Shown here: in pieces, positions 638-58,288 of the stretch
Numbering within the stretch: position 1 is the stretch's first letter
Layout of the letters: the number at the start of each line of letters is the position of its first letter
Notes under the pieces: model-generated
Databases searched by the model: none
Seen by the model: the letters and a program-made list of their open reading frames with translations, nothing else
What the model was told of the DNA's origin: nothing
Assembly: GCF_000720765.1 (NCBI RefSeq)
Contig: NZ_JODC01000003.1
Span: 124,001-188,000 of the forward strand
DNA: 64,000 nt
Source of the DNA: Streptomyces sp. NRRL S-646
GTDB lineage: Bacteria > Actinomycetota > Actinomycetes > Streptomycetales > Streptomycetaceae
Direction: 5' to 3'
Program-made: the position numbers and the translations under genes

Positions 638-1668
638 CAGCGGGCCCCGTGGTCACCCTGGTCGAGGGGCCGCATCAGCAGCTCGGCGAGCCGCTGCCGG
701 TCGGGTTCGCTGTCGCGCACGGCCTCCTGGGTGAGGTAGATGGCGTTGAGCAGCTGGTCGGCGGCGCGCAGGGACCCCGGGCTGGCCTGAAGGAAGTCGC
801 TGATCAGCCGGTCGCTGCCGGACAGGTCGGTGGCTCCGAAGTGGGCGCGGACCATCGAGTCGAGCCGTGCGGTGCCCCAGTCGTCGTTGCGGGGCGACGG
901 CAGGTCGAGGTGGAGACAGCGGCGCAGCAGCGGCGCGGGGAAGTCGCGCTCGCCGTTGCTCGTCATCACGACCACGGGGAAGGCCCGGCAGCGGATCCGG
1001 CCCTTCTGGACGGGGGCGCGGTCGCCGTCGTCGGTGAGTACCCGGACCTCGGGCTGCCGGCGCGCGATGCGCTGGAGTTCGGCGATGCGGAACTCGCCCT
1101 CCTCCAGAGCGTTGAGGAGGTCGTTGGGCAGGTCGATGTCGCTCTTGTCCAGCTCGTCCACGAGGAGAACCCGCGGCCGGGCATGAGGGAGCAAGGCGGT
1201 GCCGAGCGGGCCGAGGCGGACGTACTCGCCGATGTCTTCGGTGTAGGCCTCGCCCGTCTCCCTGGCCATCTGCATGTCGTGCAGGCGGGCGATCGCGTCG
1301 TAGCTGTAGAGGCCGTCACGCAGAGCGGTGCGGCTCACTATGGGCCAGTGCAGGACACGGCCGAGGCCGAGTTCGTGCGCGAGGGCGTGGGCGAGCGTCG
1401 ACTTGCCGGAGCCCGGGTCGCCGGTGACCAGCAGGGGCCTGCGCAGGTAGAGCGCGGCGTTGATCAGCTCCAGTTCCTCCGGCCGCCAGACCGTGCCGCT
1501 CGTGCCACGGGTGCCCAGGCGGCGCGTCGACTCGCTGCCCAGCGGCGGCACCGCCTCGATGAGGGGTTCGCCGTCGAAGGCGCGCCACGGCGGCGGCGGG
1601 GGCAGTCGCTCGACACCGTCGTGCGGCTCACCGGTTCCCCGGAAGACGAACCAGTCGGGGGTGGTCAC
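637..1668 (-). CDS. MoxR-family AAA+ ATPase
   Basis: 343-residue AAA+ ATPase. Walker A GDPGSGKST is at residues 83-91, Walker B VLLVDE at 167-172, a sensor-1-like VVMTSN near 233-238, and a paired arginine (R249/R250, possible arginine finger) follows. MoxR ATPases use ATP hydrolysis to remodel vWA-domain partners, and the next gene encodes a vWA-like protein with translational overlap (ATGA at 634-637). The GTG start at 1668 is chosen because AAGGAG lies seven bases upstream; the longer in-frame extension upstream is proline/arginine-rich noise inside the neighbouring gene. The protease gene ends 47 bp upstream, so all four genes are probably co-transcribed. Function as the regulatory NTPase of a conflict system is inference from family and context. 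Confidence 0.9.
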   Translation of the reverse strand: MTTPDWFVFRGTGEPHDGVERLPPPPPWRAFDGEPLIEAVPPLGSESTRRLGTRGTSGTVWRPEELELINAALYLRRPLLVTGDPGSGKSTLAHALAHELGLGRVLHWPIVSRTALRDGLYSYDAIARLHDMQMARETGEAYTEDIGEYVRLGPLGTALLPHARPRVLLVDELDKSDIDLPNDLLNALEEGEFRIAELQRIARRQPEVRVLTDDGDRAPVQKGRIRCRAFPVVVMTSNGERDFPAPLLRRCLHLDLPSPRNDDWGTARLDSMVRAHFGATDLSGSDRLISDFLQASPGSLRAADQLLNAIYLTQEAVRDSEPDRQRLAELLMRPLDQGDHGAR

Positions 1669-1715
1669 GGAGGTCTCCTTCTGGCGGAGGCGGTCAGGAT
1701 CCGGTGCTGGACGAG

Positions 1716-3653
1716 TCACGGGGACTCCAGCAGGTCGTCGCAGACGGGGATGGGGCGGCGCGGATCGTCGTACAGGAGCGCGAGTTGGGCCGCCCAGGCG
1801 GTGTCCGCACCGTCGCCGCCCTCCTCGTCGGCCCGCTCCCGCAAGGCCCGCAGCCGCTCGGGCAGCGCTGCCGCGCCGTCGGCCGCGCCGAGCAGCAGCG
1901 CCGCCCTGCCGTACAGCTCGCCGCAGTCCGTGCCGCACGCGCGCGCGTGCTCGCCCCGCAGGTTCCACAGCGCGACGCCGTATCCGGCGCCGATCGCATC
2001 GGCCAGCGAGGCTGCGCTCTGCTGCGGAGGGCGGCACAGCACCGGCACCGCGCCGGGCGCCGCCTCCTCCAGCGCCTCCTTCGCGTATTCGGGCGAGTGC
2101 ACCGGCAGCGCCTTGAGCTCGTTCGCCGCGACGCCGTCCCAGCGCTCCCGCCATGCCGCGGCCGGCTCACCGCGCCGTTTGAGGCTGCGCAGCACCACCT
2201 GCCGCTGGGTACCGAGGGGCGGCTCGGTGGACCGGGGCCACCTGTGGGCGTCCAGCCCGAAGTGCTCGACCGGGAGGGCGAGTTCGAGACGGGCACGGCG
2301 CTCCTCGGCGTCGAGCCCACGGAAGGCCCGGCGCAGCGGTTGGTCCAGCACCTGCGGCAGTTCGGCGAGCGCGGAGCCCTCGTCCCCCGCGTCCTCGTCC
2401 AGTACCCGCGGTGTGTCGGCTCCGTCCGGCCAGGACCAGACTCGCCAGTGGAAGCGGTCACCGGGCCCGTACGGGTTCGGCTCCAACTCGACGGCGACAA
2501 CGGGTCCCTCGTCGCCCGGGTCGGTCACCTCGCCGGATACCGCCGCGTCGTCCACGAGCCGGTCGGCGTCCGGTGTCGGCCGGCTGTCGCTCACCGCGCG
2601 CTCGCGCAGCAGCGCCGCGAGGAAGTCGGGGAGCTCCTCGATCCGCGCCTTCACCCAGCGTTCCAGTTCGGCGACGGCGTCCGGCGCCCGCCGCCGGCAC
2701 GCCTGGGCCACGGCGAGCAGATAGTGCAACGCGACGATCTCGGCGCCGTCCGGCTGGTCGTGCGCCCAGCCCTGCCCGTCGCGCCAGTCGACCGGCGCGA
2801 GCTCGTCCTCCCACAGCGGCTCGTAACCGAGCACCTGGCTGATCATCCGCTGCAGCTCGGCCGACGAGACGGGCCGCGGCAGGGCTGCCAGCAACGCGGA
2901 CGCCTCGGCGCTGTCCCGCGGCGCCCAGCCGCGTCCGCCGCCGGTCAGCTCACCCTGGAAGCGCACCCAGGAGGGTCCGCCCGTCCGGCGTTGATGCCAC
3001 CGGTCGTGCTCCCGTATGAGCGCCGCGTACGGGTCGGGTCCGAGGCTGTCCTCGCCGACCACGGGGCGCGCGTCACGGAACCCGCGCAGCGCTGTGGAGG
3101 CCACGGCCAGACCGCCGTCCTTGCCTGCTCGGCGGGCCTTGACGACGCCGGCGACAACCCCGTGGTCACGGTCCAGGAGAGGGCCGCCGGAGGCACCGTG
3201 CGGGATCTCCATATGGGGCGCGAGCGTGAGTCCGTATGAGCCGTCCCGCCCGTTGCATTCGCTGTGCCCGTTCCAGCGCTGGGGCGCGCCGCCCGTCGGG
3301 GTGCGCCAGCCGAACGCGGTGACCTGGTGCGGCGGGTCGTAGCGGTCGGTCAGCCGTACGCAGACATGGCCGTGTGCCGCGTCGTCCGCCAGCCGTACCA
3401 GGGCAAGGTCCTGCTCTGGGTCAGTGCCTCCGCCGAGCCAGTACGCGAGCCGGGCCCCCGTGTCGAGCCCGTGCCCCTGCACCCGCAGGGCGCCCACGCT
3501 CTCGGCGCCCTCCGCGAGGGGCAGGATGTGTGCGCAGGTCAGCACCCAGCCGGGCGCGACGAGGAAACCGCTGCCCCAGAGCGTGCCGGGCGCGGTGGCC
3601 GGGCCGATCCGAACGGTGGCGCGCATCGCCAACTGCTCCAGGTGGCCCGTCAT
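1716..3653 (-). CDS. Trypsin-like serine protease with VMAP-C-like C-terminal domain
   Basis: 645 residues. The N-terminal ~200 residues form a chymotrypsin-fold protease with a complete visible triad: His42 in TCAHIL, Asp82 in QDLALVRL and Ser155 in GASGGP. There is no signal peptide, so it is likely cytoplasmic. A middle segment (about 215-350) is followed by a region (about 383-645) that resembles the VMAP-C domain (vWA-MoxR-associated protein). Pairing a protease effector with MoxR and vWA partners fits predicted NTP-regulated conflict systems in which a trigger unleashes proteolysis. The ATG at 3653 overlaps the stop of the small upstream gene (ATGA). The catalytic residues are seen directly; VMAP-C and the defence role are from family knowledge and inference. 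Confidence 0.85.
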   Translation of the reverse strand: MTGHLEQLAMRATVRIGPATAPGTLWGSGFLVAPGWVLTCAHILPLAEGAESVGALRVQGHGLDTGARLAYWLGGGTDPEQDLALVRLADDAAHGHVCVRLTDRYDPPHQVTAFGWRTPTGGAPQRWNGHSECNGRDGSYGLTLAPHMEIPHGASGGPLLDRDHGVVAGVVKARRAGKDGGLAVASTALRGFRDARPVVGEDSLGPDPYAALIREHDRWHQRRTGGPSWVRFQGELTGGGRGWAPRDSAEASALLAALPRPVSSAELQRMISQVLGYEPLWEDELAPVDWRDGQGWAHDQPDGAEIVALHYLLAVAQACRRRAPDAVAELERWVKARIEELPDFLAALLRERAVSDSRPTPDADRLVDDAAVSGEVTDPGDEGPVVAVELEPNPYGPGDRFHWRVWSWPDGADTPRVLDEDAGDEGSALAELPQVLDQPLRRAFRGLDAEERRARLELALPVEHFGLDAHRWPRSTEPPLGTQRQVVLRSLKRRGEPAAAWRERWDGVAANELKALPVHSPEYAKEALEEAAPGAVPVLCRPPQQSAASLADAIGAGYGVALWNLRGEHARACGTDCGELYGRAALLLGAADGAAALPERLRALRERADEEGGDGADTAWAAQLALLYDDPRRPIPVCDDLLESP

Positions 3654-6634: not shown

Positions 6635-7693
6635 ATGCCTCCCGTCTTCGCCCACGGCCGCCTCCGCCTCTACCTGCTGAAGCTGCTGGACGAGGCCCCG
6701 CGCCACGGCTACGAGGTGATCCGCCTCCTCGAGGAACGCTTCCAGGGGCTGTACGCACCGTCGGCAGGCACCGTCTACCCCCGCCTGGCCAAGCTGGAGG
6801 CCGAGGGCCTGGTCACCCACACCACCGAGGGCGGCCGCAAGGTGTACGCCATCACGGACGCGGGCCGCGCCGAACTGGCCGACCGCAGCGGCGAGCTGGC
6901 CGACCTGGAGCTGGAGATCCGCGAGTCGGTCGCGGAACTGGCCGCCGAGATCCGGGCCGATGTGCGCGGCGCGGCGGGCGATCTGCGGCGCGAGATGCGG
7001 GCCGCGGCCACGGAGGCCCGGCGGGGTGCCGGCAGCAAGGGGCGCGGCGAACAGGACGGCTCCCCCGGTGACTTCGGGGAGTACGCCGACAAGGAGTCGT
7101 GGCGTGTCGCGAAGGAGGAGATGCGGCGCGTCAAGCAGGAGTGGAAGGAGCAGGCCCGGCGCGCCAAGGACGAGAGCCGCCGGGCCCGCGAGGAGGCCCA
7201 GCGCGCCCGGCGCCAGGCCAAGGAGGCGCAGGAGCAGGCCCGGGCCCAGGCCCAGGAGGAGCTGCAGCGCATCGCCAAGCGGGTGCAGGAGCAGGTGCAG
7301 GACCACTTCGCGCGGGGCGACTGGCCGATGGGGGTGCGGGAGGGCCTGACCGAACTGGCCAAGGAGTTCGGGGACTTCGGGAAGGACTTCGGCAGGGAGT
7401 TCGGAAAGGACTTCGGGTTCGGACGGGGCGGCACCGGCACCTCGGCACCGCAGCCCGAGTACTCGCACACCAAGGAGGCCTTCCCGGCGGAGTACGAACC
7501 GTCGTGGGCGCACGAGGCCACCACCGGAGACCCGGCCCGCGACCTCGACCGCCTGCTCGACCGCTTCCGGGACGACATCCGTGACACGGCCCGGGACCAC
7601 GGCGTCACGGACGAACAGCTCCGCGACGCCCGCCACCATCTGTCGACGGCCGCGGCGCACATCGAAGCGATACTGCGCGCACCGAGGCCCTGA
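6635..7693 (+). CDS. PadR family transcriptional regulator with long coiled-coil extension
   Basis: 352 residues. Residues 1-85 form the PadR winged helix (LLDEAPRHGYEVIRLLEE, SAGTVYPRLAKLEAEGLV, KVYAITDAGR). Residues ~90-245 are a very charged Arg/Glu/Ala coiled coil, followed by a Phe/Gly/Lys-rich stretch (GDFGKDFGREFGKDFGFG) and a helical tail. Classic PadR proteins are 110-180 residues, so the extension is unusual and may mediate oligomerisation. It starts one base after the DUF4097 stop. Likely represses the palindrome at 5545-5554. Confidence 0.9.
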   Translation: MPPVFAHGRLRLYLLKLLDEAPRHGYEVIRLLEERFQGLYAPSAGTVYPRLAKLEAEGLVTHTTEGGRKVYAITDAGRAELADRSGELADLELEIRESVAELAAEIRADVRGAAGDLRREMRAAATEARRGAGSKGRGEQDGSPGDFGEYADKESWRVAKEEMRRVKQEWKEQARRAKDESRRAREEAQRARRQAKEAQEQARAQAQEELQRIAKRVQEQVQDHFARGDWPMGVREGLTELAKEFGDFGKDFGREFGKDFGFGRGGTGTSAPQPEYSHTKEAFPAEYEPSWAHEATTGDPARDLDRLLDRFRDDIRDTARDHGVTDEQLRDARHHLSTAAAHIEAILRAPRP

Positions 7694-7734
7694 GAGCCGG
7701 CTGGCCGCTTTCCGCGAAAGCAGAGGTCAGACGC

Positions 7735-8340
7735 TCAGGTGCACTGCCAGAGGAAGCGGCCCTCCTTGCCGTCCGGGGAGAGGAAGGCATAACCGACGCC
7801 CGCGTCACCGAAGTTGACATGGAAGGGCAGCTTCCCGGAGTCCAGCTGGACCACCAGTTGCCATCCTTCGCCGGGCGTCTCGTCGCCCTGGAGCCAGTGC
7901 GGTTCGACACCGGGACCGCCGAGGAACTGCCAGGGCCGACGGTCTTCCTCCTCGTCGGAGTGCTCACCGGAGCCCTCGCCGGAGTCAATGTGCCGCGGCA
8001 GATGGTCGGCCCCCGCGCTCGGGCCCTCCGCCCGCCGTTCGACGGTCACGAAGTCCGGGATGTGGCCGCCGGGTTGGATCACCAGGGCGTTCTCCCCACC
8101 CTCCGGCTCCCAGGTGCCGTCGACGTACTCCCCCTCGTCCCCGGTCATGAACAGATGGGCGAGCCGGCCGCCCTCCAGGGCGAACTGGCCCAAAAACTCC
8201 ATCGGCCGGCCGGTCTGACGCGACAGCGGCCACTGCGGCTCCTCCAGCCACACGGGCTGCCCGCCCACCTTGGTCACCGCTTCACGCACAGCCCCGTCCG
8301 CAGGGACGAACACGAGCGGCACGGGATCGGACACGGTCAT
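7735..8340 (-). CDS. DUF1963 (YwqG-like) protein
   Basis: 201 residues. The order VGGQPVWLEEPQWP near the N-terminus, FLGQF at about residue 50, a central FMTGDEGEY and late LLVQLDSGKLPFHVNFGDAGVGYAFLSPDG-type strands match the YwqG/DUF1963 fold of unknown function. ATG 8340 is preceded by AAGGAG at five bases. Monocistronic, convergent with padR. No enzymatic residues are known for the family. Confidence 0.8.
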   Translation of the reverse strand: MTVSDPVPLVFVPADGAVREAVTKVGGQPVWLEEPQWPLSRQTGRPMEFLGQFALEGGRLAHLFMTGDEGEYVDGTWEPEGGENALVIQPGGHIPDFVTVERRAEGPSAGADHLPRHIDSGEGSGEHSDEEEDRRPWQFLGGPGVEPHWLQGDETPGEGWQLVVQLDSGKLPFHVNFGDAGVGYAFLSPDGKEGRFLWQCT

Positions 8341-8503
8341 GAGAGCTCCTTCGAAGGACCAGGCCAACCTCGGCAGGCCCCACCCTAGAACCCCCCACGG
8401 ACACCCCCGGCCCAGCAAGCCGCCCTCTCCGACCGCCCTCCGACCCCGCCGCGTACGCCCGCCCTGGAGCGCACCCGTCACGCACGCCGGGCCAGGAGCC
8501 CGG

Positions 8504-9073
8504 TCATCCGGCCTTCGCCTCACCGCCCCCGCCGAACAGCACCCGTATCAGCGACTCGTGTGTCACCCCGCGGTCGGCGAGGACCTCGGCGGGGATGCCG
8601 GGGCGGGCGGTCAGCGCCAGGAGGATGTGCTCGTCGCCGATGTGTCGGTCCCCCTGGGCGACGGCGGTGTGCAGCGACGTCTCGAGGATCTGCTTGGCGC
8701 CCCGGCCGAAGCTGCGGCGCCCCGACCACCAGCCCTTGTCCCCGCGGTCGCCGGACATCGCCCCGACGCCGTGCACCGCCTCGACGCGGGCGACGATCTC
8801 CGACACGTCGATCCCGAGCCCGGCGAGCGCATCGGTCTCGGACTGGGACAGCCCGGCCCGCCGACGGGCCTCGGCCACCGCCTCCCGCACCGACTCCCTG
8901 CGCTCGCCGGTCACCCCGAGCGAGGTGAGCGCGAACGAGGCGCGGCTGCCCTCGCGGTCGAGCAGCGCGAGCAGTATGTGCTCGGCTTCGACGGACGGCG
9001 CCCCTGCCTGTTCCGCGTGCTCGACCGCCGTCCGCACCACGTCACGGGCGTCCTTTGTGAATCGCTCGAACAT
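8504..9073 (-). CDS. Clp repeat (ClpN) domain protein
   Basis: 189 residues with two Clp N-terminal repeats: MFERFTKDARDVVRTAVEHA...VEAEHILLALL (residues 1-40) and a second AKQILETSLHTAVAQGDRHIGDEHILLALT (about 127-155). It lacks any AAA+ module, so it is a stand-alone ClpC-N-like protein, perhaps an adaptor that binds substrates or competes with ClpC. The ATG at 9073 overlaps the stop of the upstream HTH gene (ATGA), so the pair is translationally coupled and shares the autoregulated promoter at 9283-9329. Confidence 0.85.
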   Translation of the reverse strand: MFERFTKDARDVVRTAVEHAEQAGAPSVEAEHILLALLDREGSRASFALTSLGVTGERRESVREAVAEARRRAGLSQSETDALAGLGIDVSEIVARVEAVHGVGAMSGDRGDKGWWSGRRSFGRGAKQILETSLHTAVAQGDRHIGDEHILLALTARPGIPAEVLADRGVTHESLIRVLFGGGGEAKAG

Positions 9074-36216: not shown

Positions 36217-36474
36217 ATGGACTGGCGTCACAACGCCGTTTGCCGCGAGGAAGACCCCGAGCTCTTCTTCCCCATCGGCAACACCGGTCCTGCGCTGCTG
36301 CAGATCGAGGAAGCCAAGGCCGTCTGCCGCCGCTGCCCCGTCATGGAGCAGTGCCTGCAGTGGGCGCTCGAGTCCGGCCAGGACTCCGGCGTCTGGGGTG
36401 GTCTCAGCGAGGACGAGCGTCGCGCCATGAAGCGCCGTGCCGCCCGCAACCGGGCCCGTCAGGCCTCCGCCTGA
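36217..36474 (+). CDS. wblE: WhiB-family Fe-S regulator WblE
   Basis: 85 residues. Four cluster cysteines: C9, C37, C40 and C46 (AVCREEDPELFF, CRRCPVMEQC), then the GVWGGLSEDER turn and a basic AT-hook-like tail (MKRRAARNRARQ). The 4Fe-4S cluster probably senses NO or redox state and the protein binds the primary sigma factor. AGGAGAGG precedes the ATG. Orthologue of mycobacterial WhiB1. Confidence 0.95.
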   Translation: MDWRHNAVCREEDPELFFPIGNTGPALLQIEEAKAVCRRCPVMEQCLQWALESGQDSGVWGGLSEDERRAMKRRAARNRARQASA

Positions 36475-36663: not shown

Positions 36664-38139
36664 CTACTTGTTCGCCTGCACCGGAACGTCGAGGATCACC
36701 CGCGTCCCCCGCTCCGGCGCCGGGACCATGTCGAACGTGCCGCCCAACTCCCCCTCCACCAGGGTCCGTACGATCTGCAGCCCCAGGTTGCCGGCGGTGT
36801 GCGGGTCGAAGCCCTCGGGCAGGCCGACGCCGTCGTCCTGGACGGTGACCAGGAGACGGGCCTCCTTTGTCGTGCCGCCGCGGACCGCTGAGACCTCGAC
36901 CGTGCCGGTGTCGCCCTCGCGGAAGCCGTGTTCGAGCGCGTTCTGCAGGATTTCCGTCAGGACCATGGACAGCGGGGTGGCCACCTCGGCGTCCAGGATG
37001 CCGAAGCGGCCGCTGCGCCGGCCGGTGACCTTGCCCGGCGAGATCTCCGCGACCATGGCCAGCACCCGGTCGGCGATCTCGTCGAACTCCACTCGCTCGT
37101 CGAGGTTCTGGGAGAGCGTCTCGTGCACGATTGCGATCGATCCGACACGGCGGACGGCTTCTTCGAGCGCCTCCCGGCCGCGGTCGGACTCGATGCGCCG
37201 GGCCTGCAGGCGGAGCAGGGCCGCGACCGTCTGGAGGTTGTTCTTCACCCTGTGGTGGATCTCCCGGATGGTCGCGTCCTTGGTGATCAACTCGCGCTCG
37301 CGGCGGCGCAGTTCGGTGACGTCGCGGAGCAGGACCAGCGAACCGATGCGGGTGCCCTTGGGCTTGAGCGGGATCGCGCGGAACTGGATGACCCCGTCCC
37401 TGGCCTCGATCTCGAACTCGCGGGGCGCCCAGCCGCTGGCCACCTTGGACAGCGCCTCGTCCACCGGGCCGCGGGTCGGGGCGAGTTCGGCGGTGGTCTT
37501 GCCGAGGTGCTGGCCGACGAGGTCGGAGGCGAGGCCCATGCGGTGGTACGCAGACAGTGCGTTCGGGGAGGCGTACTGGACGATGCCGTCCGCGTCGAGG
37601 CGGATCAGGCCGTCGCCGACGCGCGGCGCGGCATCCATGTCCATCTGCTGGTTCGCGAACGGGAAGGAACCGGCCGCGATCATCTGCGCCAGGTCCGAGG
37701 CGCTCTGCAGATACGTCAGTTCGAGGCGACTCGGGGTGCGCACGGTCAGGAGGTTGGTGTTGCGCGCGATGACGCCGAGGACGCGTCCGTCCCGCCGTAC
37801 GGGGATCGACTCGACCCGCACGGGGACCTCCTCGCGCCACTCGGGATCGCCCTCGCGCACGATCCGGCCTTCGTCCAGCGCCGCGTCCAGCATGGGGCGG
37901 CGGCCGCGCGGGACGAGGTGGCCGACCATGTCGTCCTGGTAGGAGGTGGGGCCCGTGTTGGGGCGCATCTGGGCGACGGAGACGTAGCGTGTGCCGTCGC
38001 GGGTGGGGACCCACAGGACGAGGTCGGCGAAGGAGAGGTCGGACAGCAGCTGCCACTCCGAGACCAGCAGATGGAGCCACTCGAGGTCGGAGTCGTCGAG
38101 GGCGGTGTGCTGGCGGACCAGTTCGTTCATGGAGGGCAC
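36664..38139 (-). CDS. PAS/GAF sensor histidine kinase, HisKA_2 (PdtaS-like)
   Basis: 491 residues, soluble. N-terminal GAF-like domain (~15-150), PAS domain (~170-285), then the HisKA_2 phospho-acceptor in REIHHRVKNNLQT (His about 295) and a HATPase with EILQNALEHGF, DDGVGLPEGF and NLGLQIVRTLV. This layout matches PdtaS, whose partner is an RNA-binding ANTAR response regulator; no regulator gene is adjacent. GTG 38139 is taken because TACGCT lies seven bases upstream (leaderless); ATG 38130 is an alternative. Confidence 0.92.
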   Translation of the reverse strand: MPSMNELVRQHTALDDSDLEWLHLLVSEWQLLSDLSFADLVLWVPTRDGTRYVSVAQMRPNTGPTSYQDDMVGHLVPRGRRPMLDAALDEGRIVREGDPEWREEVPVRVESIPVRRDGRVLGVIARNTNLLTVRTPSRLELTYLQSASDLAQMIAAGSFPFANQQMDMDAAPRVGDGLIRLDADGIVQYASPNALSAYHRMGLASDLVGQHLGKTTAELAPTRGPVDEALSKVASGWAPREFEIEARDGVIQFRAIPLKPKGTRIGSLVLLRDVTELRRRERELITKDATIREIHHRVKNNLQTVAALLRLQARRIESDRGREALEEAVRRVGSIAIVHETLSQNLDERVEFDEIADRVLAMVAEISPGKVTGRRSGRFGILDAEVATPLSMVLTEILQNALEHGFREGDTGTVEVSAVRGGTTKEARLLVTVQDDGVGLPEGFDPHTAGNLGLQIVRTLVEGELGGTFDMVPAPERGTRVILDVPVQANK

Positions 38140-49383: not shown

Positions 49384-49653
49384 ATGTCAGATGTGTCCGA
49401 GGCGAGACCACCGGTGGTGACACCGGTCCGCGTGGTCATCGCCCTCTGTCTCGTGGCGCCCTTCGTGGCGATGCTCTGGGTCGGCTCCTACGCCAAGACG
49501 GACCCGGCGCTCGGCGGCATCCCGTTCTTCTACTGGTACCAGATGCTGTGGGTGCTGATCTCCACGGCGCTGACCATGACGGCGTACAAGCTGTGGCAGC
49601 GTGACCAGCGGGCCCGCGCCGCCGCCTCGCAGAAGGGCGGTGCGTCGGAATGA
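49384..49653 (+). CDS. DUF3311 small membrane protein (MctP partner)
   Basis: 89 residues, two membrane helices (about 15-35 and 47-68). Short partners like this precede sodium:solute symporter genes, as here with an ATGA overlap to mctP. Likely an accessory subunit. Confidence 0.87.
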   Translation: MSDVSEARPPVVTPVRVVIALCLVAPFVAMLWVGSYAKTDPALGGIPFFYWYQMLWVLISTALTMTAYKLWQRDQRARAAASQKGGASE

Positions 49654-51269
49654 ACAACGGCGTGAACGGCGTCGCACTCGGCGTCTTCATCTTCTTCTTC
49701 CTGGCCGTCACGGTCATGGGCTTCCTGGCCGCGCGCTGGCGCAAGGCCGAGAACGAGCAGAGCCTCGACGAATGGGGCCTGGGCGGCCGGTCGTTCGGCA
49801 CCTGGATCACCTGGTTCCTGCTCGGCGGCGACCTGTACACGGCGTACACCTTCGTCGCCGTACCCGCGGCGATCTACGCGGCGGGCGCGGCCGGGTTCTT
49901 CGCCGTGCCCTACACGATCCTGGTGTACCCGCTGATCTTCACGTTCCTGCCCCGTCTGTGGTCGGTCTCGCACCGGCACGGGTACGTGACCACGTCGGAC
50001 TTCGTGCGCGGCCGCTTCGGCTCGAAGGGCCTGTCGCTGGCGGTGGCCGTGACCGGCATCCTGGCGACGATGCCGTACATCGCCCTGCAGCTGGTGGGCA
50101 TCCAGGCGGTCCTCGACGTCATGGGCGTCGGCGGCAGTGCGAACTCCAACTGGTTCGTGAAGGACCTGCCGTTGCTGATCGCCTTCGGTGTGCTGGCGGC
50201 GTACACGTACTCGTCGGGCCTGCGCGCGCCCGCGCTGATCGCGTTCGTCAAGGACGCACTGATCTACATCGTCATCGCCGTCGCGATCATCTACATCCCG
50301 ACCAAGCTCGGCGGCTTCGACGAGATCTTCTCCAAGGCGGCCGGGAAGTACACGGCGGCCGGTGCGGGCGGACTGGTCCCGGCCGAGGCGAACCAATGGA
50401 CGTACGCCACGCTGGCGTTGGGCTCCGCGCTCGCGCTGTTCATGTACCCGCACTCGATCACCGCGACCCTCTCCTCGAAGAGCCGTGACGTGATCCGCCG
50501 CAACACCACCATCCTTCCGCTGTACTCGCTGATGCTGGGCCTGCTTGCGCTGCTCGGCTTCATGGCGATCGCGGCCGGGGTCAAGGTCGCCAACGGGCAG
50601 CTGGCCATTCCGCAGTTGTTCGAGAACATGTTCCCGTCGTGGTTCGCGGGCGTGGCCTTCGCGGCGATCGGCATCGGCGCACTCGTCCCCGCGGCCATCA
50701 TGTCCATCGCGGCCGCGAACCTCTTCACCCGCAACATCTACAAGGACTTCATCAAGCCGGACGCGACGCCGGAGCAGGAGACCAAGGTCTCAAAGCTCGT
50801 GTCCCTGCTGGTGAAGGTCGGCGCCCTGGTCTTCGTCCTCACGATGGACAAGACGGTCGCGATCAACTTCCAGCTGCTGGGCGGAATCTGGATCCTGCAG
50901 ACGTTCCCGGCCCTGGTCGGCGGCCTGTTCACGCGCTGGTTCCACCGCTGGGCGCTGCTCGCCGGCTGGGCGGTCGGCATGGTCTACGGGACGGTCGCCG
51001 CGTACGGCGTCGCCTCCCCGACCAACCCGGGCCAGAAGCACTTCGGCGGCTCCAACGCGGAGATCCCCGGTATCGGCCAGATCGGCTACATCGGCCTGAC
51101 GTCGTTCGTGCTGAACGTGCTGGTGACGGTGGTTCTCACGTTCGTCCTGAAGGCGCTGAAGGCCCCCGAGGGCGTCGACGAGACGAAGCCGCAGGACTAC
51201 ACGGCGGACGCGGGCGACCCGGGCGTCCAGGTGGAGCTCCCGCCGGCGACCGCCGGGGCGTCCCACTAG
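49650..51269 (+). CDS. mctP: Monocarboxylate uptake permease (sodium:solute symporter)
   Basis: 539 residues, 13 membrane segments of the SSS family: ENEQSLDEWGLGGRSFGTWITWFLLGGDLYTAYTF, PYTILVYPLIFTFLPRLW, HRHGYVTTSDFVRGRFGSKGL, and ALVPAAIMSIAAANLFTRNIYKDF near the Na+ site. Similar to rhizobial MctP, which takes up lactate, pyruvate and alanine. Together with CstA it makes a monocarboxylate uptake block. Confidence 0.9.
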   Translation: MNNGVNGVALGVFIFFFLAVTVMGFLAARWRKAENEQSLDEWGLGGRSFGTWITWFLLGGDLYTAYTFVAVPAAIYAAGAAGFFAVPYTILVYPLIFTFLPRLWSVSHRHGYVTTSDFVRGRFGSKGLSLAVAVTGILATMPYIALQLVGIQAVLDVMGVGGSANSNWFVKDLPLLIAFGVLAAYTYSSGLRAPALIAFVKDALIYIVIAVAIIYIPTKLGGFDEIFSKAAGKYTAAGAGGLVPAEANQWTYATLALGSALALFMYPHSITATLSSKSRDVIRRNTTILPLYSLMLGLLALLGFMAIAAGVKVANGQLAIPQLFENMFPSWFAGVAFAAIGIGALVPAAIMSIAAANLFTRNIYKDFIKPDATPEQETKVSKLVSLLVKVGALVFVLTMDKTVAINFQLLGGIWILQTFPALVGGLFTRWFHRWALLAGWAVGMVYGTVAAYGVASPTNPGQKHFGGSNAEIPGIGQIGYIGLTSFVLNVLVTVVLTFVLKALKAPEGVDETKPQDYTADAGDPGVQVELPPATAGASH

Positions 51270-51285
51270 CGGTTACGGCGATCAG

Positions 51286-51313
51286 CGGGCCGTCGGAGAA
51301 ATCCGGCGGCCCG
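51286..51313. terminator. Terminator between mctP and the NACHT gene (left repeat copy)
   Basis: CGGGCCG (51286-51292) pairs with CGGCCCG (51307-51313), followed by TTGTCGT. It lies between convergent mctP and the NACHT gene. Its right arm is inside the 17-bp direct repeat found again at 55058. Confidence 0.65.
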
Positions 51314-51324
51314 TTGTCGTACCC
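51308..51324 (+). repeat. 17-bp direct repeat, left of the NACHT gene
   Basis: GGCCCGTTGTCGTACCC, identical to 55058-55074, and preceded in both places by GAAATCCG two or one base earlier. The two copies bracket the NACHT gene (51334-54945). Confidence 0.8.
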
Positions 51325-51333
51325 GCACGGCGG

Positions 51334-54300
51334 TCAGCCGCGTGTGCGCTTGGCCATCTCGCCCCAGAACCGATCCAGTTCCCGCACCCGCATGCCCACC
51401 CAGTGTGGGGTCTTCCTGCGCAGCCCCCTGGGGAGGAGACGGCGCACCCGCCCGGGCAGCAGGGCCTGCTGCTGGCGGCAGAACGGCTCGCGGATCTCTC
51501 CCCGAGGGACACAGCCCCGGGGCGGGTACGGGCACAGCTGGAACTTGCAGTCCGGCAGACAGGTGCTGCCGGGTGTGGGCGGCACCGAAGTACCGGCCCT
51601 CATTCCGGGCTGCAGCGGCTCGCGGTTCGTACGGATGCACGGCGGGAGCGGCATGCCGGCCTGCTCGGCGCGGGCCAGGCGCTCCTCGACCTCGTCCGGG
51701 TGCCCGTCCCGTTCGATGAGGTTGAGCATGACCAGGACGTCGGCGACGAGGCGCTGGGCGCGCGGGTCCAGGGTGCTCCACCCGGCCGAGGGCGGGATCC
51801 ACAGATTGTGCTTGCGGTATCCCGCGGAGTTGGTGGTGCGGGAACCGATGGTGTCGGCGACACCCTTCTCGTCGATCCAGAGGAAGCGCTCGGGCTGCCC
51901 GGTCTCCAGGGCGAGGGCCGCCAGGTCGCCGGCCTCGGCGACGAACGGATGCAGGCACCGGCGGGTCGAGGCGCCGTCCGCGCCGGACCGGCCGGGCGCC
52001 GCGTTCACCGTGCCCGCCATCGACAGCCAGCGCCCCACTGTCTGCACGGCCATCGCCCCGCCGATCGTCCGGGACGGCTCATGCGTGCCGCCGTGATCGC
52101 CATCCTGATCTGCACGGTCGTGGTCATGGCTGCCCACGCTGTCCGGGAGCTCCCACAGGCACAGCGCCTGGAGCAGGGTCAGCTGCGCATACCAGCTCCG
52201 GGACTGCTGCAGCACGGTCTCCGCCTGCCGGATCAGGTCCGCGCGACCGCCCGGATACGCGTGCGGGTGCCGTTTGCGCCGGTTGGCCGCGTACTTGAAG
52301 CCCTGGGCCAGCGCGGCCTCAAGGGCGAGCGGCAGGTCAGGGGGGCCGCCGGTGAACTTCGGGTCCAGATGGCGCAGCCACTTGGTGAGGCGCTCCCGGG
52401 CCTCGTCACGGTGGGCCTCGTCGACCGAGCCCAGCAGCATGGGGACCATCCGTGCCCGCATCGCGAACTGCCTGAAGAGGGCGATCCGTTGGTTCCGGTA
52501 CCGCTGGTTGTTCTCCTGCCGCTTCTGCTGCAGCTGCCTGATGCGCTCGGACGAGGCAGCCCGTGAGGTCGCGCCGGCGGCCCTCGCCTGCCCCATGCTC
52601 TCGTTCCATTCCTTGTACGCCTGTCTCTTCTCCGCTTTCAGGTCGGAGAGCTTCTTCTCGTACTCCTTCTCGGGGTCGCTGTTCAGACCGATCTCCTTAC
52701 GGATCGCGGCGAACGCCTCGTTGCCGCCGGTGCCGAACTCCTGGGCGACGGCCAGACGTATGGAGTACGACGGCTCTTCGACGCCCAGCTGGAAGAGCTC
52801 CCAGTACAGCGGCGTGGTGTCGATCCTGCCGGAGACCTTCCGCAGCGCCGCGCCGAGTTGCTTGAGCAGCCTCAGCTTCGCGTCCTCGATGGTGCGCTGG
52901 TCTCCCTTGGAGTCGGCCCAGCGGCGGCGCACCGTTGTGACGATGTCGCTCAGCAGTCTCGGGGGGGCCTCCGCGCTCTCGATCTCCAGGGCCGCCGCGT
53001 AGAGGTCGAGGGCCTTGGGGTCGTCCGTGCGGCGCTTCGCGGCCGTCCAGAGCCGGTGGGCCAGTGTGCGTCCCCGCACGGGTGACTGCCGCACCAGTTC
53101 CTCGATCCCCTTCTTCACCTCGGCCCGGACCCCGCCTCCGCCGGGCGTGCGTTGCGCCGCCCGCCGACGGGACGACAGCACCAGGGCGATGAGCAGTTCG
53201 CGGCTGGGACCGGGCGGTTGCAGCGCCTCCTCGACCAGTTCCCCCGCACCCCGCTCGCCCAGGTGGTTCAGCACGCGGTAGCCCAGGTAGGCCTGGATGA
53301 TGCTGTGCGGGAACCGGACTCTCTTCGCGAAGCCCTCGACGAGCCCGAGCTTGTCCGCGTTGCCCACGAAGCGGGCCAGGGCGGCGTTGCACTGGTCCAT
53401 GTTTCCCTCGCGCAGCCGCCTGCTCCCCCCGTCGCTGAGCCGCTCGCAGAGCGCGTCCCAGATCTGCCGCCGGTGCCACCCGGAGAAGACGTTCCCGTGC
53501 TTGCCGTACCGGTCGAAGCCACGCCGGGTCGCCCACAGGTGCTCCGCCCGGACCCTCACGCGCTGGGTCGGACCTCCGTGTACGTCCCTGTCGAGCAGTT
53601 CCGCGAAACCGACCTCCAGGTTGTCCTGGAGCAGTCCGATGCAGGCCAGGGCGGACACCACTTCCAGGGTGTCGCGCCGCTCCCGCGGAGTCAGTGCAAC
53701 GTCCTGACGCAGCCTGCCCTCGCACAGGGCCTCGGCCCAGGTCTCCAGCAGCCAGAGCCTGAGCGTCGCGCGATCCTGGCTGCGTGTGTTCATGTGCTGC
53801 GGATCGTCGTCCGGGCGGTCGTGCTCCAGGGCTCCGTGGCAGTGGAGTTCACGGGCGATCTGCAGATAGACGGGTGACTCGGTGACCTCCGCCGTCTCCA
53901 CGATCCAGTCCACCCGGCGCTCGTCGGTCTCCGGCACATGCGCCTCGACGAAGTGCAGGGCCTCCTCCTCGCTCAGCGGCTCCAGTTCCACGATCGCGGC
54001 GCAGGTGCTCTCCAGTGGGCTGTGCGGCCGGGAGGCGATGACCAGCGGCAGCTTCTCCTCGCGGGCACGCTCGATGGCCCGCCGGATGATGTTGTCCCGG
54101 TCCTGCTGGAGACCCTCGTCCTGGAGGGCCTCCTCCAGTCCGTCGGCGATGACGACCGGCTTGTCGTCGGCGAGCAGTTGCTGCCAGACCCGCTCGGTCT
54201 TGCTGCGCGCCAGAATGCCTTGGGGCGACTCTTCGGCGAACCGCCGCCTGGCCATGTGCTCGAAGTCCAGATCGGCGCCGTCGGCGTCCCTCAGCCGCAC

Positions 54301-54945
54301 CGGCACGGGCACGGCGTGCTGCCGGGCCAGGAGTTCGGTGAGCCGTACGAGGACGGCCGTCTTCCCCACGCCGACACCGCCGACGAGGAGATACGGCCGA
54401 CGGGTGTCGCGCTCCCGCAGCCGCTCCGCGATGACCTGGGCGACGTCCTCGCGGCCCACGATCTCGGCATTGCCCTGCCCGGCGGTGAGTACGAGTCTGT
54501 GGGGATCACGGCGCGCCTTGGCGAGGTAACGGCGCTTGGTCCAGCCGTACCAGCAGAACAGGAAGAGCGCGGCGGCGATGGAGGCGGTGAGGACGGGGCC
54601 GAGGAACTGGAGGAGGGTCTTGAACCCGTTGTTATCGTTTCGCCACTTTTCGAACCCGGTCGATTCGCTCTCGAGCAGGATGTACACGCCCTCCCCGCAC
54701 CAGGCGAGCACGGAGAGGGCGGCGACCAGCCACACAACCCTGGTGACATTGGTGTAGGAGAACCATCTGCGCCACTTCCTGGGGCGAGGGGCGCCGCGGC
54801 GGGCCTCCAGACGGATCGTCAGGGCGTGCCAGTGGCCGAGCAGGTCCTGCCTGACCCGGCCCCCCGCCCGTCTCAGATCCAGCGTCGCCATCGGCGCGTT
54901 GCGCGGTCGCTCCCTGCCGGGCGGGTGACGGACGACCCTCGTCAT
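51334..54945 (-). CDS. Membrane-anchored NACHT/STAND NTPase, defence candidate
   Basis: 1203 residues. Two membrane helices (about 68-90 and 110-134) lead into a STAND NTPase: Walker A GGVGVGKTA (189-197), Walker B VVIADGLEE (264-272), and ASRP (304-307), as in NACHT proteins. The long C-terminal part is helical, with a charged coiled coil (about 770-830), and ends with a five-cysteine cluster (C1129, C1133, C1138, C1145, C1156) that may bind zinc. NACHT STAND proteins sense triggers and activate effectors; several are antiphage. No separate effector is obvious; the membrane anchor or the C-terminus could serve. GGAGGG precedes ATG 54945. It is bracketed by a direct repeat. Confidence 0.85.
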   Translation of the reverse strand: MTRVVRHPPGRERPRNAPMATLDLRRAGGRVRQDLLGHWHALTIRLEARRGAPRPRKWRRWFSYTNVTRVVWLVAALSVLAWCGEGVYILLESESTGFEKWRNDNNGFKTLLQFLGPVLTASIAAALFLFCWYGWTKRRYLAKARRDPHRLVLTAGQGNAEIVGREDVAQVIAERLRERDTRRPYLLVGGVGVGKTAVLVRLTELLARQHAVPVPVRLRDADGADLDFEHMARRRFAEESPQGILARSKTERVWQQLLADDKPVVIADGLEEALQDEGLQQDRDNIIRRAIERAREEKLPLVIASRPHSPLESTCAAIVELEPLSEEEALHFVEAHVPETDERRVDWIVETAEVTESPVYLQIARELHCHGALEHDRPDDDPQHMNTRSQDRATLRLWLLETWAEALCEGRLRQDVALTPRERRDTLEVVSALACIGLLQDNLEVGFAELLDRDVHGGPTQRVRVRAEHLWATRRGFDRYGKHGNVFSGWHRRQIWDALCERLSDGGSRRLREGNMDQCNAALARFVGNADKLGLVEGFAKRVRFPHSIIQAYLGYRVLNHLGERGAGELVEEALQPPGPSRELLIALVLSSRRRAAQRTPGGGGVRAEVKKGIEELVRQSPVRGRTLAHRLWTAAKRRTDDPKALDLYAAALEIESAEAPPRLLSDIVTTVRRRWADSKGDQRTIEDAKLRLLKQLGAALRKVSGRIDTTPLYWELFQLGVEEPSYSIRLAVAQEFGTGGNEAFAAIRKEIGLNSDPEKEYEKKLSDLKAEKRQAYKEWNESMGQARAAGATSRAASSERIRQLQQKRQENNQRYRNQRIALFRQFAMRARMVPMLLGSVDEAHRDEARERLTKWLRHLDPKFTGGPPDLPLALEAALAQGFKYAANRRKRHPHAYPGGRADLIRQAETVLQQSRSWYAQLTLLQALCLWELPDSVGSHDHDRADQDGDHGGTHEPSRTIGGAMAVQTVGRWLSMAGTVNAAPGRSGADGASTRRCLHPFVAEAGDLAALALETGQPERFLWIDEKGVADTIGSRTTNSAGYRKHNLWIPPSAGWSTLDPRAQRLVADVLVMLNLIERDGHPDEVEERLARAEQAGMPLPPCIRTNREPLQPGMRAGTSVPPTPGSTCLPDCKFQLCPYPPRGCVPRGEIREPFCRQQQALLPGRVRRLLPRGLRRKTPHWVGMRVRELDRFWGEMAKRTRG

Positions 54946-55057
54946 CGTGCGTTCTCCCTCCGAGATCGGTTCTCGGGACGGAGGACCACGCGGGCGCCGC
55001 TGCCTACCTCCATGGAATCACTCTCCGCGAACTGCGCAACCGGGCCCGGAAATCCGA

Positions 55058-55074
55058 GGCCCGTTGTCGTACCC
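55058..55074 (+). repeat. 17-bp direct repeat, right of the NACHT gene
   Basis: Second copy of GGCCCGTTGTCGTACCC, with a CGGGCC/GGCCCG hairpin (55041-55063), 113 bp upstream of the NACHT start and 20 bp before the acetyltransferase ATG. Confidence 0.8.
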
Positions 55075-55093
55075 CTCCGGCAGACTCGGTGCC

Positions 55094-55600
55094 ATGGACA
55101 TCGTGATCCGGCAGGCGGAGCCCGGCGAGTACGAGACCCTCGGCGAGATCACCGCCCAGGCCTACCTCGGCGACGGGCTGCTCGATTTCGAAGGCAGCGA
55201 CTGGTACCTCGGCGAGCTGAAGGACGTCGCCAAGCGGGCGGCCCACGCTCAGGTCCTGGTCGCCGTGGAGAAAGACCGGGTCCTCGGGGGCGTGACCTTC
55301 GTGCCGTCCGGCGGCCCCATGTCCGAGACGGCCGGGCCCTCGGAGACCGAGATACGCATGCTCGCCGTCGCCCCGGCGGCCCGCGGCCGGGGCATCGGCG
55401 AGGCTCTCGTGCGCGCCTGCATCGACCGCTCCCGGGCCACGACCGGCCGCACGGGCGTGGTCCTGTCGACCCAGGGCTCGATGCGTGCCGCCCACCGGAT
55501 CTACGAACGGCTGGGCTTCGTCCGCGTCCCCGAGCGCGACTGGCATCCGGTTCCGGGGAACGACGACATCCGGCTGCTCACCTATCAGTTGACGTTCTGA
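55094..55600 (+). CDS. GNAT family N-acetyltransferase
   Basis: 168 residues, one GNAT domain: IRMLAVAPAARGRGIGEALVRACID (acetyl-CoA loop, about 94-118) and STQGSMRAAHRIYERLGFVRVPERDW. CAGACT seven bases before ATG 55094 suggests a leaderless message. Its promoter region holds the right copy of the repeat that flanks the NACHT gene. Substrate is unknown. Confidence 0.9.
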   Translation: MDIVIRQAEPGEYETLGEITAQAYLGDGLLDFEGSDWYLGELKDVAKRAAHAQVLVAVEKDRVLGGVTFVPSGGPMSETAGPSETEIRMLAVAPAARGRGIGEALVRACIDRSRATTGRTGVVLSTQGSMRAAHRIYERLGFVRVPERDWHPVPGNDDIRLLTYQLTF

Positions 55601-55654: not shown

Positions 55655-55825
55655 CAAGATGTATGCTCATGCTCGCTGTCGCCGCAGGGGAATCCGGTGC
55701 GAATCCGGAACTGTCCCGCAACGGTGTACCCATACGTGTTCGCACACATATGGGCGTCAGTCCGAGGACCTGTCGACAGTGCGCCCGGCCCGTCCGGCCC
55801 GGGTGCTTTGACGTCCGGGCCTCGT
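55655..55825 (+). ncRNA. Cobalamin (B12) riboswitch upstream of nrdAB
   Basis: The core GCCGCAGGGGAATCCGGTGC, then GAATCCGGAACTGTCCCGCA and ACGG, is the conserved cobalamin-riboswitch centre; GTCAGTCCGAGGACCTG at 55756-55772 is the B12 box. A hairpin GGCCCGG/CCGGGCC (55796-55821) follows and may be the expression platform. In S. coelicolor the nrdABS operon is shut off by vitamin B12 through such an element, because the B12-dependent NrdJ then suffices. Confidence 0.92.
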
Positions 55826-55915
55826 GGAGTGGGTCGGTGGACGCGACGCCGTGCGCGCTCGTGACTGCCCCCTGCCCTCCGCAAGGCCCCCGTGCCGAGC
55901 GAGGGAGAGCCTCAC

Positions 55916-58288
55916 GTGACCATCGCGCCAGCAGACCCGGTTTCAGCAAACGCCGTCGTGGCCGACGCCGGTCCCGGAGCCGCGCTGCTGCGGACCCTGA
56001 CCGAGCTGACCGCCGACCTCCCCGACGCCGACCCCGGCCGGGTCGCCGCCGCCGCGCTGCGCGGCCGGTCCGCCCGTGCGGACGAGACGGAGCTGCGCGA
56101 ACTGGCCACGGAGGCGGCCGCCGGTCTGATCTCGGATGACCCCGCCTACTCGCGGCTGGCCGCGCGTCTGCTGACGATCGGCATCGCCGCGGAGGCCGCC
56201 TCACAAGGCGTCACGTCCTTCACGGAGTCCGTCGCCGTCGGGCACCGCGAGGGGCTCATCGCCGATCGCACAGCGGAGTTCGTCCGCGTCCACGCGACCC
56301 GGCTCGACGCGCTGATCGACGCCCAGGGCGACGACCGCTTCGGCTACTTCGGCCTTCGCACGCTCCACAGCCGCTACCTCCTGCGGCACCCGATCACCCG
56401 CAAGGTCATCGAGACGCCCCAGCACTTCATGCTGAGGGTGGCGAGCGGACTGGCCGAGGACGCTGTGTCCGATTCAAAGACCGGGAGCCGGTCCGTGGAC
56501 GAGGTCGCAGCGCTCTACGGCCTGATGAGCCGCCTCGACTACCTCCCCTCCTCCCCCACCCTCTTCAACTCCGGCACCCGGCACCCCCAGATGTCGTCCT
56601 GCTACCTCCTCGACTCCCCGCTGGACGAGCTGGACTCCATCTACGACCGCTACCACCAGGTCGCCCGCCTCTCGAAGCACGCCGGCGGCATCGGCCTGTC
56701 GTACAGCCGGATCCGCGCCCGCGGCTCCCTCATCCGCGGCACCAACGGCCATTCCAACGGCATCGTCCCGTTCCTGAAGACCCTCGACGCCTCGGTCGCC
56801 GCCGTGAACCAGGGCGGCCGGCGCAAGGGCGCGGCCGCCGTCTACCTGGAGACCTGGCACTCCGACATCGAGGAGTTCCTGGAGCTGCGCGACAACACCG
56901 GTGAGGACGCCCGCCGTACGCACAACCTGAACCTCGCGCACTGGGTCCCGGACGAGTTCATGCGCCGGGTCAACGAGGACGCCGTGTGGTCCCTGTTCTC
57001 GCCCTCGGACGTGCCCGAGCTGGTCGACCTGTGGGGCGAGGAGTTCGATGCCGCCTACCGCAAGGCAGAGGAGGCGGGACTCGCGAAGAAGACCATCCCG
57101 GCCCGCGACCTCTACGGCCGCATGATGCGCACCCTCGCCCAGACCGGCAACGGCTGGATGACCTTCAAGGACGCCGCCAACCGCACCGCCAACCAGACGG
57201 CCGAGCCGGGCCACGTCGTCCACTCCTCCAACCTCTGCACGGAGATCCTGGAGGTCACGAACGACGGGGAGACGGCGGTGTGCAACCTGGGGTCGGTGAA
57301 CCTGGGAGCGTTCGTCGTCAACGGTGATGTGGACTGGGAACGGCTGGACGAGACGGTCCGCACGGCCGTGACCTTCCTGGACCGTGTGGTCGACATCAAC
57401 TTCTACCCCACCGAGCAGGCAGGCCGGTCGAACGCCCGCTGGCGCCCCGTCGGCCTCGGCGCGATGGGCCTCCAGGACGTCTTCTTCAAGCTCCGTCTGC
57501 CCTTCGACTCCCCCGAGGCCAGGGCCCTCTCCACCCGGATCGCCGAGCGCATCATGCTCGCCGCGTACGAGGCCTCCGCGGACCTCGCCGAGCGCAACGG
57601 CCCGCTGCCGGCCTGGGAGAAGACCCGTACGGCCCGCGGCGTCCTGCACCCCGACCACTACGACACCGAACTCACCTGGCCGGAGCGCTGGGCAGCCCTC
57701 CGGGACCGCATCGCCGCCGTCGGCATGCGCAACTCGCTCCTCCTCGCGATCGCCCCCACCGCCACCATCGCGTCGATCGCGGGCGTGTACGAGTGCATCG
57801 AGCCGCAGGTCTCCAACCTCTTCAAGCGCGAGACCCTCTCCGGCGAGTTCCTCCAGGTCAACTCGTACCTGGTGAAGGACCTCAAGGCACTCGGCGTCTG
57901 GGACGCCCGCACCCGCGAGGCCCTGCGCGAGGCGAACGGCTCGGTGCAGGACTTCGCCTGGATCCCGGCCGACGTACGCGCCCTGTACCGCACGGCGTGG
58001 GAGATCCCGCAGCGCGGCCTGATCGACATGGCGGCGGCCCGCACCCCGTATCTGGACCAGTCCCAGTCCCTGAACCTGTTCCTGGAGACGCCGACCATCG
58101 GCAAGCTCTCCTCGATGTACGCGTACGCCTGGAAACAGGGTCTGAAGACGACGTACTACCTGCGCTCCCGCCCGGCGACCCGGATCGCCCGCGCCGCCCA
58201 AGCCACCGTCCCCGCCCAGCAGACGGCCGACCCCGATGCGGTCGCCTGCTCCCTGGAAAACCCCGAGTCCTGCGAGGCCTGCCAGTAA
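55916..58288 (+). CDS. nrdA: Class Ia ribonucleotide reductase, large subunit
   Basis: 790 residues (NrdL in some streptomycete papers). Reduces ribonucleotides to deoxyribonucleotides. Visible catalytic features: SSPTLFNSGT with a redox Cys in MSSCYLLD, radical site NLCTEILEV (Asn-Leu-Cys-Thr-Glu), partner Cys in AVCNLGSVN, and tail ESCEACQ for re-reduction. The first ~110 residues lack a recognisable ATP-cone. GTG 55916 has GAGGGAGAG upstream; GTG 55892 would add eight residues. Stop overlaps the nrdB start (TAATG). Confidence 0.95.
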   Translation: MTIAPADPVSANAVVADAGPGAALLRTLTELTADLPDADPGRVAAAALRGRSARADETELRELATEAAAGLISDDPAYSRLAARLLTIGIAAEAASQGVTSFTESVAVGHREGLIADRTAEFVRVHATRLDALIDAQGDDRFGYFGLRTLHSRYLLRHPITRKVIETPQHFMLRVASGLAEDAVSDSKTGSRSVDEVAALYGLMSRLDYLPSSPTLFNSGTRHPQMSSCYLLDSPLDELDSIYDRYHQVARLSKHAGGIGLSYSRIRARGSLIRGTNGHSNGIVPFLKTLDASVAAVNQGGRRKGAAAVYLETWHSDIEEFLELRDNTGEDARRTHNLNLAHWVPDEFMRRVNEDAVWSLFSPSDVPELVDLWGEEFDAAYRKAEEAGLAKKTIPARDLYGRMMRTLAQTGNGWMTFKDAANRTANQTAEPGHVVHSSNLCTEILEVTNDGETAVCNLGSVNLGAFVVNGDVDWERLDETVRTAVTFLDRVVDINFYPTEQAGRSNARWRPVGLGAMGLQDVFFKLRLPFDSPEARALSTRIAERIMLAAYEASADLAERNGPLPAWEKTRTARGVLHPDHYDTELTWPERWAALRDRIAAVGMRNSLLLAIAPTATIASIAGVYECIEPQVSNLFKRETLSGEFLQVNSYLVKDLKALGVWDARTREALREANGSVQDFAWIPADVRALYRTAWEIPQRGLIDMAAARTPYLDQSQSLNLFLETPTIGKLSSMYAYAWKQGLKTTYYLRSRPATRIARAAQATVPAQQTADPDAVACSLENPESCEACQ

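Follow-up and report, generated by a model that had tools for sequence, protein, structure and literature searches.

A solitary Streptomyces gene for a predicted membrane-anchored NACHT protein with a conserved five-cysteine module: a candidate accessory immune receptor

In the 64,000-nt stretch of Streptomyces sp. NRRL S-646 DNA analyzed here (contig NZ_JODC01000003.1, positions 124,001 to 188,000; hereafter the window), a complete open reading frame (ORF) with an ATG start occupies positions 51334..54945 of the minus strand and encodes a protein of 1203 aa (P0001). Stops interrupt the plus strand of 51334-54945 in that frame, and the minus-strand ORF is open. Two membrane helices at the N terminus lead into a NACHT ATPase, which is followed by a long helical region that includes a coiled-coil hairpin and by a C-terminal five-cysteine module. 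The gene is solitary, with a symporter gene on one side and GNAT and ribonucleotide reductase genes on the other. Each of these features, including the isolated position between metabolic genes, had been named in a preliminary description of the sequence, which gave no strand, and all of them were borne out by the analyses reported below.

Homologues were collected by three protein searches, of which the best 120 of 1072, 778 and 548 matches yielded 295 different proteins. After the seven proteins of 1000 aa or less were dropped, the 288 proteins of >1000 aa (P0001 included) were used for all counts over long homologues; as these are rows related by descent, the motif counts show conservation and not independent events. 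A tree divided the 288 proteins into four groups, three with supports of 0.999, 0.999 and 1.0 and the fourth with a best clade of 44/46 (support 0.988), and the mean identity between the groups was 0.41-0.51. Among the matches listed, Streptomyces, Kitasatospora, Actinacidiphila and Allostreptomyces were represented, group 4 consisted mostly of metagenome proteins, and the only annotations were NACHT domain-containing, ATP-binding or hypothetical protein. The layout of two transmembrane helices, NACHT, a histidine motif and five cysteines recurs in all four groups and in nearly all of the 288 proteins, which excludes a chance origin.

The NACHT NTPase region covers about residues 160-345 (53911..54468, on the minus strand like all protein features given here), as defined by Pfam and the alignments. 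Profile PF05729 matched residues 184-337 with E=1.7e-6 and 28.4 bits, above the cut-off of 26.7 bits, and it also matched P0120, P0176 and P0255, the representatives of the three other clades. The Walker A motif GGVGVGKT (residues 189-196; 54358..54381) contains K195, conserved in 287 of the 288 long homologues, with a natural K195N in relative P0055, and the Walker B motif VVIADGLEE (residues 264-272; 54130..54156) contains D268, G269 and L270 in 288/288. In alignments of 33 and 121 relatives, Walker A reads GGVGxGKT and Walker B VVxADGLEEA; the Walker A and the D-G-x-[DE]-[DE] form of Walker B by which the NACHT clade is recognized are both present. Behind the NTPase lies a winged-helix-type motif F-x-H-x3-Q that is conserved across the long homologues (FPHSIIQ, residues 545-551; 53293..53313; His547 in 288/288 and Gln551 in 287/288). 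From the role of this motif in NLR structures, we take His547 to be the candidate ADP-sensing histidine. In a fold comparison of the predicted structure, NLRs and not a housekeeping enzyme ranked top, and an arrangement resembling NACHT, a first helical domain (HD), a winged-helix domain (WHD) and a second helical domain (HD2) was suggested by a model whose NACHT part is weak. NCBIfam profiles reached no more than weak P-loop matches, with scores well under the cut-off, and the Pfam scan of P0001 found no DNA-binding, enzyme or recombinase domain besides NACHT. We consider it almost certain that P0001 is a NACHT, NLR-related STAND switch anchored in the membrane.

The membrane part was located from hydropathy maxima and model helices. 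The best 19-residue windows start at residues 73 and 114, with Kyte-Doolittle (KD) values of 1.93 and 1.98, compared with 1.33 and 1.35 for later maxima. Transmembrane helix 1 (TM1, about residues 66-92; 54670..54750) coincides with a model helix at 64-92 and has KD >=1.3 in 115 of the 116 sequences that hold both regions, the 5 of 121 aligned relatives without both being left out. Transmembrane helix 2 (TM2, about residues 110-136; 54538..54618) is seen in both hydropathy and the model, with Pro117 in 285/285 ungapped sequences and Phe/Tyr at position 128 in 286. Exactly two membrane segments precede NACHT in 269 of the 288 long homologues. Averaged over the 116 sequences, the segment ahead of TM1 has a net charge of +5.5, the loop between TM1 and TM2 one of −1.2 (range −9 to +4) and the segment behind TM2 one of +5.3; from this in-out-in pattern, the short loop should lie outside, and NACHT and the remainder of the protein in the cytoplasm. 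TM2 and the following linker are more conserved than TM1, with Ala144, Thr154 and Gly156 at about 100%, and because this is too high for a mere anchor, we infer that TM2 has a further role. Two cysteines occur in the TM1-TM2 loop in 112 of the 115 members of groups 3 and 4 (e.g., P0176 and P0255) and in 0/173 of groups 1 and 2, a pair that would allow a disulphide outside the cell. This pair divides the family into two halves.

In the predicted structure, helices make up the stretch from about residue 340 to about residue 930. A region resembling HD1, WHD and HD2 together with repeats was assigned to residues 340-757 (52675..53928) from the predicted structure and the fold comparison, and the predicted structure further gave a long coiled-coil-like helical hairpin at residues 758-840 (helices 758-789 and 792-840; 52426..52674) and more helical repeats at residues 843-1020 (51886..52419). 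The alignments define the five-cysteine module C1103-x25-C-x3-C-x4-C-x17-C1156 (51478..51639). Among the 121 aligned relatives, C1103, C1129, C1133 and C1138 are each present in 121/121 and C1156 in 120/121, the first four are also invariant in an alignment of 132 rows, and among the 288 long homologues the counts are 285, 284, 282, 284 and 283 in sequence order. Two other cysteines are less conserved: C1145 is found in only 16/116, and C929, present in 212/288, is missing from group 3. The module, modelled with modest confidence, probably binds Zn or an Fe-S cluster. The cysteine spacing of WhiB proteins differs from that of the module, and the Pfam WhiB profile (PF02467), positive elsewhere in the window at 36217-36471, gave no match in P0001. 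The WhiB-family gene so detected (36217-36474) lies beside a PdtaS-type histidine kinase gene (36664-38139).

The gene is accessory, as the preliminary description had stated, and a survey of related genomes for its presence or absence did not find universal conservation at this site. Queries from two clades identified 18 carriers among 101 genomes of the genus, each with a single locus. No more than 6 or 7 first-look candidates were scored per listed genome, so that very divergent copies may be missed. The initial list had twenty genomes, of which G020, with a relic, and G084, with a match of 33% over 129 residues, do not count as carriers. The gene lies at the symporter-side site in 8 of the 18 carriers and elsewhere, alone and in varied contexts, in 10; genomes L001-L003 also have it at the symporter-side site. 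A symporter match was found in 75/101 genomes, two at only 47% identity. From the 67 genomes with a symporter and without an adjacent intact copy (including these two), 20 sites were checked, and at 18 of them no NACHT trace was detected, a gap of 0.5-0.7 kb in L054 and L073 being left aside. One of the 20 sites (L068, in G020) holds a decayed relic in two pieces that match residues 227-314 and 1139-1168. At another (L067), the gap between GNAT and symporter contains a different gene (7653-8908), nucleoside-hydrolase-like by reading of its translation, and the site may accept other insertions. The distance from symporter stop to GNAT start was 71-79 bp in six, 127-205 bp in four and 529-700 bp in two of 12 empty sites that keep GNAT, compared with 3756-3922 bp in the seven occupied loci with GNAT. 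In a tree of the flanking proteins, occupied loci were interleaved with empty ones, several nodes being weak.

Outside the genus, the picture rests on a single class sample of 79 genomes (74 outside the genus), in which one genome of another family has a relative with two in-frame stops. Among 72,556 plasmid records, one contained a relative, a linear 269-kb plasmid of Streptomyces canus (L092, NZ_CP109336.1). A further NACHT gene on this plasmid (18580-20694), shorter than the family member and about 3.5 kb away from it, lies near a helix-turn-helix gene, with a transposase gene at a greater distance. At the window locus, the terminator-like hairpin after the symporter gene is directly repeated on both sides of the NACHT gene (51286-51324 and 55041-55074; 39/34 bp), with 0/200 shuffles scoring as high. 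This repeat is a possible insertion scar; in the other nine occupied loci, 11 to 186 of 200 shuffles scored as high, and it is significant in 1/10.

Selection acts on the NACHT gene, and its rate of evolution is higher than that of the genes beside it. Across the ten loci compared at the symporter-side site, the mean difference per residue was 0.249 for the NACHT protein, compared with 0.054 for the symporter and 0.075 for the reductase, and the ratio of nonsynonymous to synonymous substitution rates (dN/dS) in seven pairs was 0.20-0.43, compared with 0.10-0.21 for the flanks. When three pairs were divided into regions, NACHT was the most constrained (0.02, 0.25 and 0.11), a rank that it shared with the C-terminal third in the second pair; the transmembrane region (0.22, 0.53 and 0.44) and residues 601-850 (0.29, 0.34 and 0.41) were among the least constrained. 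The synonymous rate dS of the NACHT gene exceeded both flanks in 6/7 pairs (e.g., 0.50 against 0.29 and 0.33 between the window and L088), possibly as a result of exchange or of a weaker codon bias. The distances of the NACHT protein correlated with those of the reductase at rho 0.69 and of the symporter at 0.30, a weak test because the flanks correlate with each other at only 0.22. We read these data as a gene that is mostly resident, repeatedly lost and subject to some exchange.

Upstream of the gene, a pattern search found the element GTTGCG-N17-TTCCATGGA (55009..55040, minus strand). The form GTTGCG-N17/18-TTCCATGGA was present at 10/10 loci of the symporter-side site. In nine of them it precedes the start by 59-84 bp; the distance is undefined in L089, where the first 36 codons are unmatched. 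A looser form was found at 4/10 other-site loci (69 bp before the start in L075, 75 bp in L076, 44 bp in L077 and about 210 bp in L078), of which L076 and L077 represent one shared context, and this looser pattern had one further match in 1.28 Mb of fetched sequence on both strands. In the 10.7-Mb source genome, the sole match of the element pattern was the one upstream of the NACHT gene, and the reversed pattern had none. A related pattern gave 8 matches in 101 genomes, six just upstream of the gene and two upstream of an alanine-dehydrogenase-like gene, with none for the reversed control. As the element accompanies the gene at the symporter-side site and at some others, it is probably the gene's promoter. 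Single-sequence folds further predict a leader hairpin CCTCCGTCCCGAGA...TCTCGGAGG (54957..54984, minus strand) that adjoins and covers a Shine-Dalgarno-like GGAGG, and by eye a leader hairpin at the Shine-Dalgarno sequence is common to most loci of the symporter-side site.

The preliminary description could not match this layout to a described class, and our literature search, with most subscription papers outside its cover, agrees in having found no described class that combines a membrane anchor, NACHT and a Cys cluster. One report describes bNACHT02, 12, 25 and 32 as bacterial NACHT, NLR-related antiphage proteins (PMC12169576), with which P0001 shares a central NACHT, N-terminal effector and C-terminal sensor positions, and a single gene. 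As described there, the bNACHT proteins carry either SNaCT domains without evident effector or NCH1 with an N-terminal PD-(D/E)XK nuclease (PMC12169576), whereas P0001 is set apart by two transmembrane helices in front and the five-cysteine module behind. The three-part layout itself is present in P0001, and the effector and sensor roles of its outer parts are putative. With the animal NLRs NLRP3, NLRC4 and NOD2, the model appears to share the NACHT-HD-WHD-HD2-like arrangement and F-x-H-x3-Q in the WHD position; unlike them, P0001 is membrane-integral, no PYD, CARD or LRR was seen in it, and HEAT-like helices and the Cys module replace the LRR. The STAND logic is also that of AVAST and other PADLOC STAND systems, but no PADLOC model matches P0001 or the representative of any other clade. 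AfsR-type STAND regulators combine a DNA-binding domain with NB-ARC and TPR, for which no Pfam or NCBIfam match was found in P0001. VMAP and other NTP-dependent conflict systems are described as multi-gene systems of multicellular bacteria with vWA, MoxR or GTPase parts (PMC7159879); P0001 shares their NTPase logic, the concentration in multicellular bacteria and, with some, transmembrane segments, but is encoded by one gene without vWA, MoxR or GTPase partners beside it. At the left edge of the window (2-3653, minus strand), a Trypsin-VMAP-C protein (1716-3653; PF20028, E=3.6e-42, and PF13365) adjoins a MoxR-like AAA ATPase (640-1716; AAA_5) and a partial gene without Pfam match, possibly the vWA part. 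Truncated by the window edge and about 48 kb away from the NACHT gene, this is probably a VMAP ternary conflict system.

The reading that we favour, and to which we give an even chance, is that P0001 is a single-gene, membrane-integral, NLR-related STAND receptor that serves as an accessory abortive-infection immune module with its membrane hairpins as effector. At rest, the protein would be ADP-bound and closed. A cytoplasmic trigger, either a phage product or an infection-caused host change, would be read by the helical and Cys-containing C-terminal half and lead to ADP/ATP exchange and NACHT oligomerization in the membrane plane; the transmembrane hairpins would then cluster and permeabilize or depolarize the membrane, resulting in growth stop or cell death. 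A bolder version, which we regard as unlikely, makes P0001 the archetype of a family of membrane-integral NLRs (2TM-NACHT-HEAT-Cys5) that is not yet described, is centred on Streptomycetaceae, has four or more clades and unites receptor, switch and pore in one polypeptide, its oligomer directly assembling a pore of transmembrane hairpins gated by a metal or Fe-S C-terminal sensor, as the counterpart, in a multicellular bacterium and in one protein, of inflammasome plus gasdermin. The architecture, NACHT, anchor, Cys cluster and accessory status given in the preliminary description are supported, and the antiphage action that it proposed is putative. Several results give an immune role no support: PADLOC returned 0 families for P0001 at E up to 1 and 0 for P0120, P0176 and P0255 at 0.01, the surroundings of ten other-site loci, to about 8 kb, contain no defence island, neither 50,697 phage records nor a viral-contig scan yielded a phage-borne relative, and diversifying selection was not seen at the resolution of the seven pairs, all with dN/dS below 1.

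The main rival, which we hold to be somewhat unlikely, is that P0001 regulates development, stress or metabolism as a STAND protein tethered to the membrane. Its NACHT switch would then sense a cytoplasmic metabolite, metal or redox state via the Cys module and recruit partners at the membrane. Streptomyces employ STAND proteins such as AfsR as regulators, and a regulator would suit a solitary gene among metabolic genes, purifying selection, five nearly invariant cysteines, a conserved promoter-like element with a leader hairpin at the Shine-Dalgarno position, and a single locus in each of the 18 carrier genomes. It is harder to reconcile with a gene not found in 83/101 genomes of the genus, with its unrelated sites and one decayed copy, and with a protein in which the profile scans found neither a DNA-binding nor an enzyme domain apart from NACHT. 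The invariance of four cysteines in the 132 rows and of C1156 in nearly all long homologues would also suit a sentinel for redox state or metal that is triggered at the Cys module (Fe-S or Zn) and only transmits through NACHT, be it for immunity or for stress; but the spacing is unlike WhiB, metal binding is putative, and the modestly modelled module could be structural. We hold this reading to be improbable.

That the gene is a passive or selfish passenger without a selected host function, which drift and homologous exchange between the flanks would maintain, seems very improbable, as the dN/dS values and the nearly invariant catalytic motifs show selection. A patchy and solitary gene, a relic, the raised dS between the window and L088 and the direct repeat around the window copy are what such a passenger might leave, but the protein has no recombinase domain found and the repeat is significant at only one locus. 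A housekeeping gene tied to nucleotide reduction or symport is barely credible and already largely refuted by the sites without the gene: its neighbours usually lack it, and ten other genomes carry it away from them. It does adjoin the ribonucleotide reductase and symporter genes, but the ten loci compared were picked for that location.

If the immune reading holds, a membrane-anchored NLR would compress the inflammasome pathway into a single protein and offer a testable model for NACHT acting directly on membranes, and it would be a single-gene defence candidate outside Streptomyces defence islands, missed by co-localization. Even as a regulator, P0001 would define a large STAND family in which the Cys module is conserved.

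The site is bordered on the left by the sodium:solute symporter gene (49650..51269, plus strand). On the right lie the GNAT acetyltransferase gene (54947..55600 as the listed ORF, its conserved part starting near an ATG at 55094) and the ribonucleotide reductase large subunit gene (55892..58288), both on the plus strand. The latter is preceded by a cobalamin riboswitch (55663-55791, plus strand), as expected for the B12-controlled class Ia nrd genes of Streptomyces.

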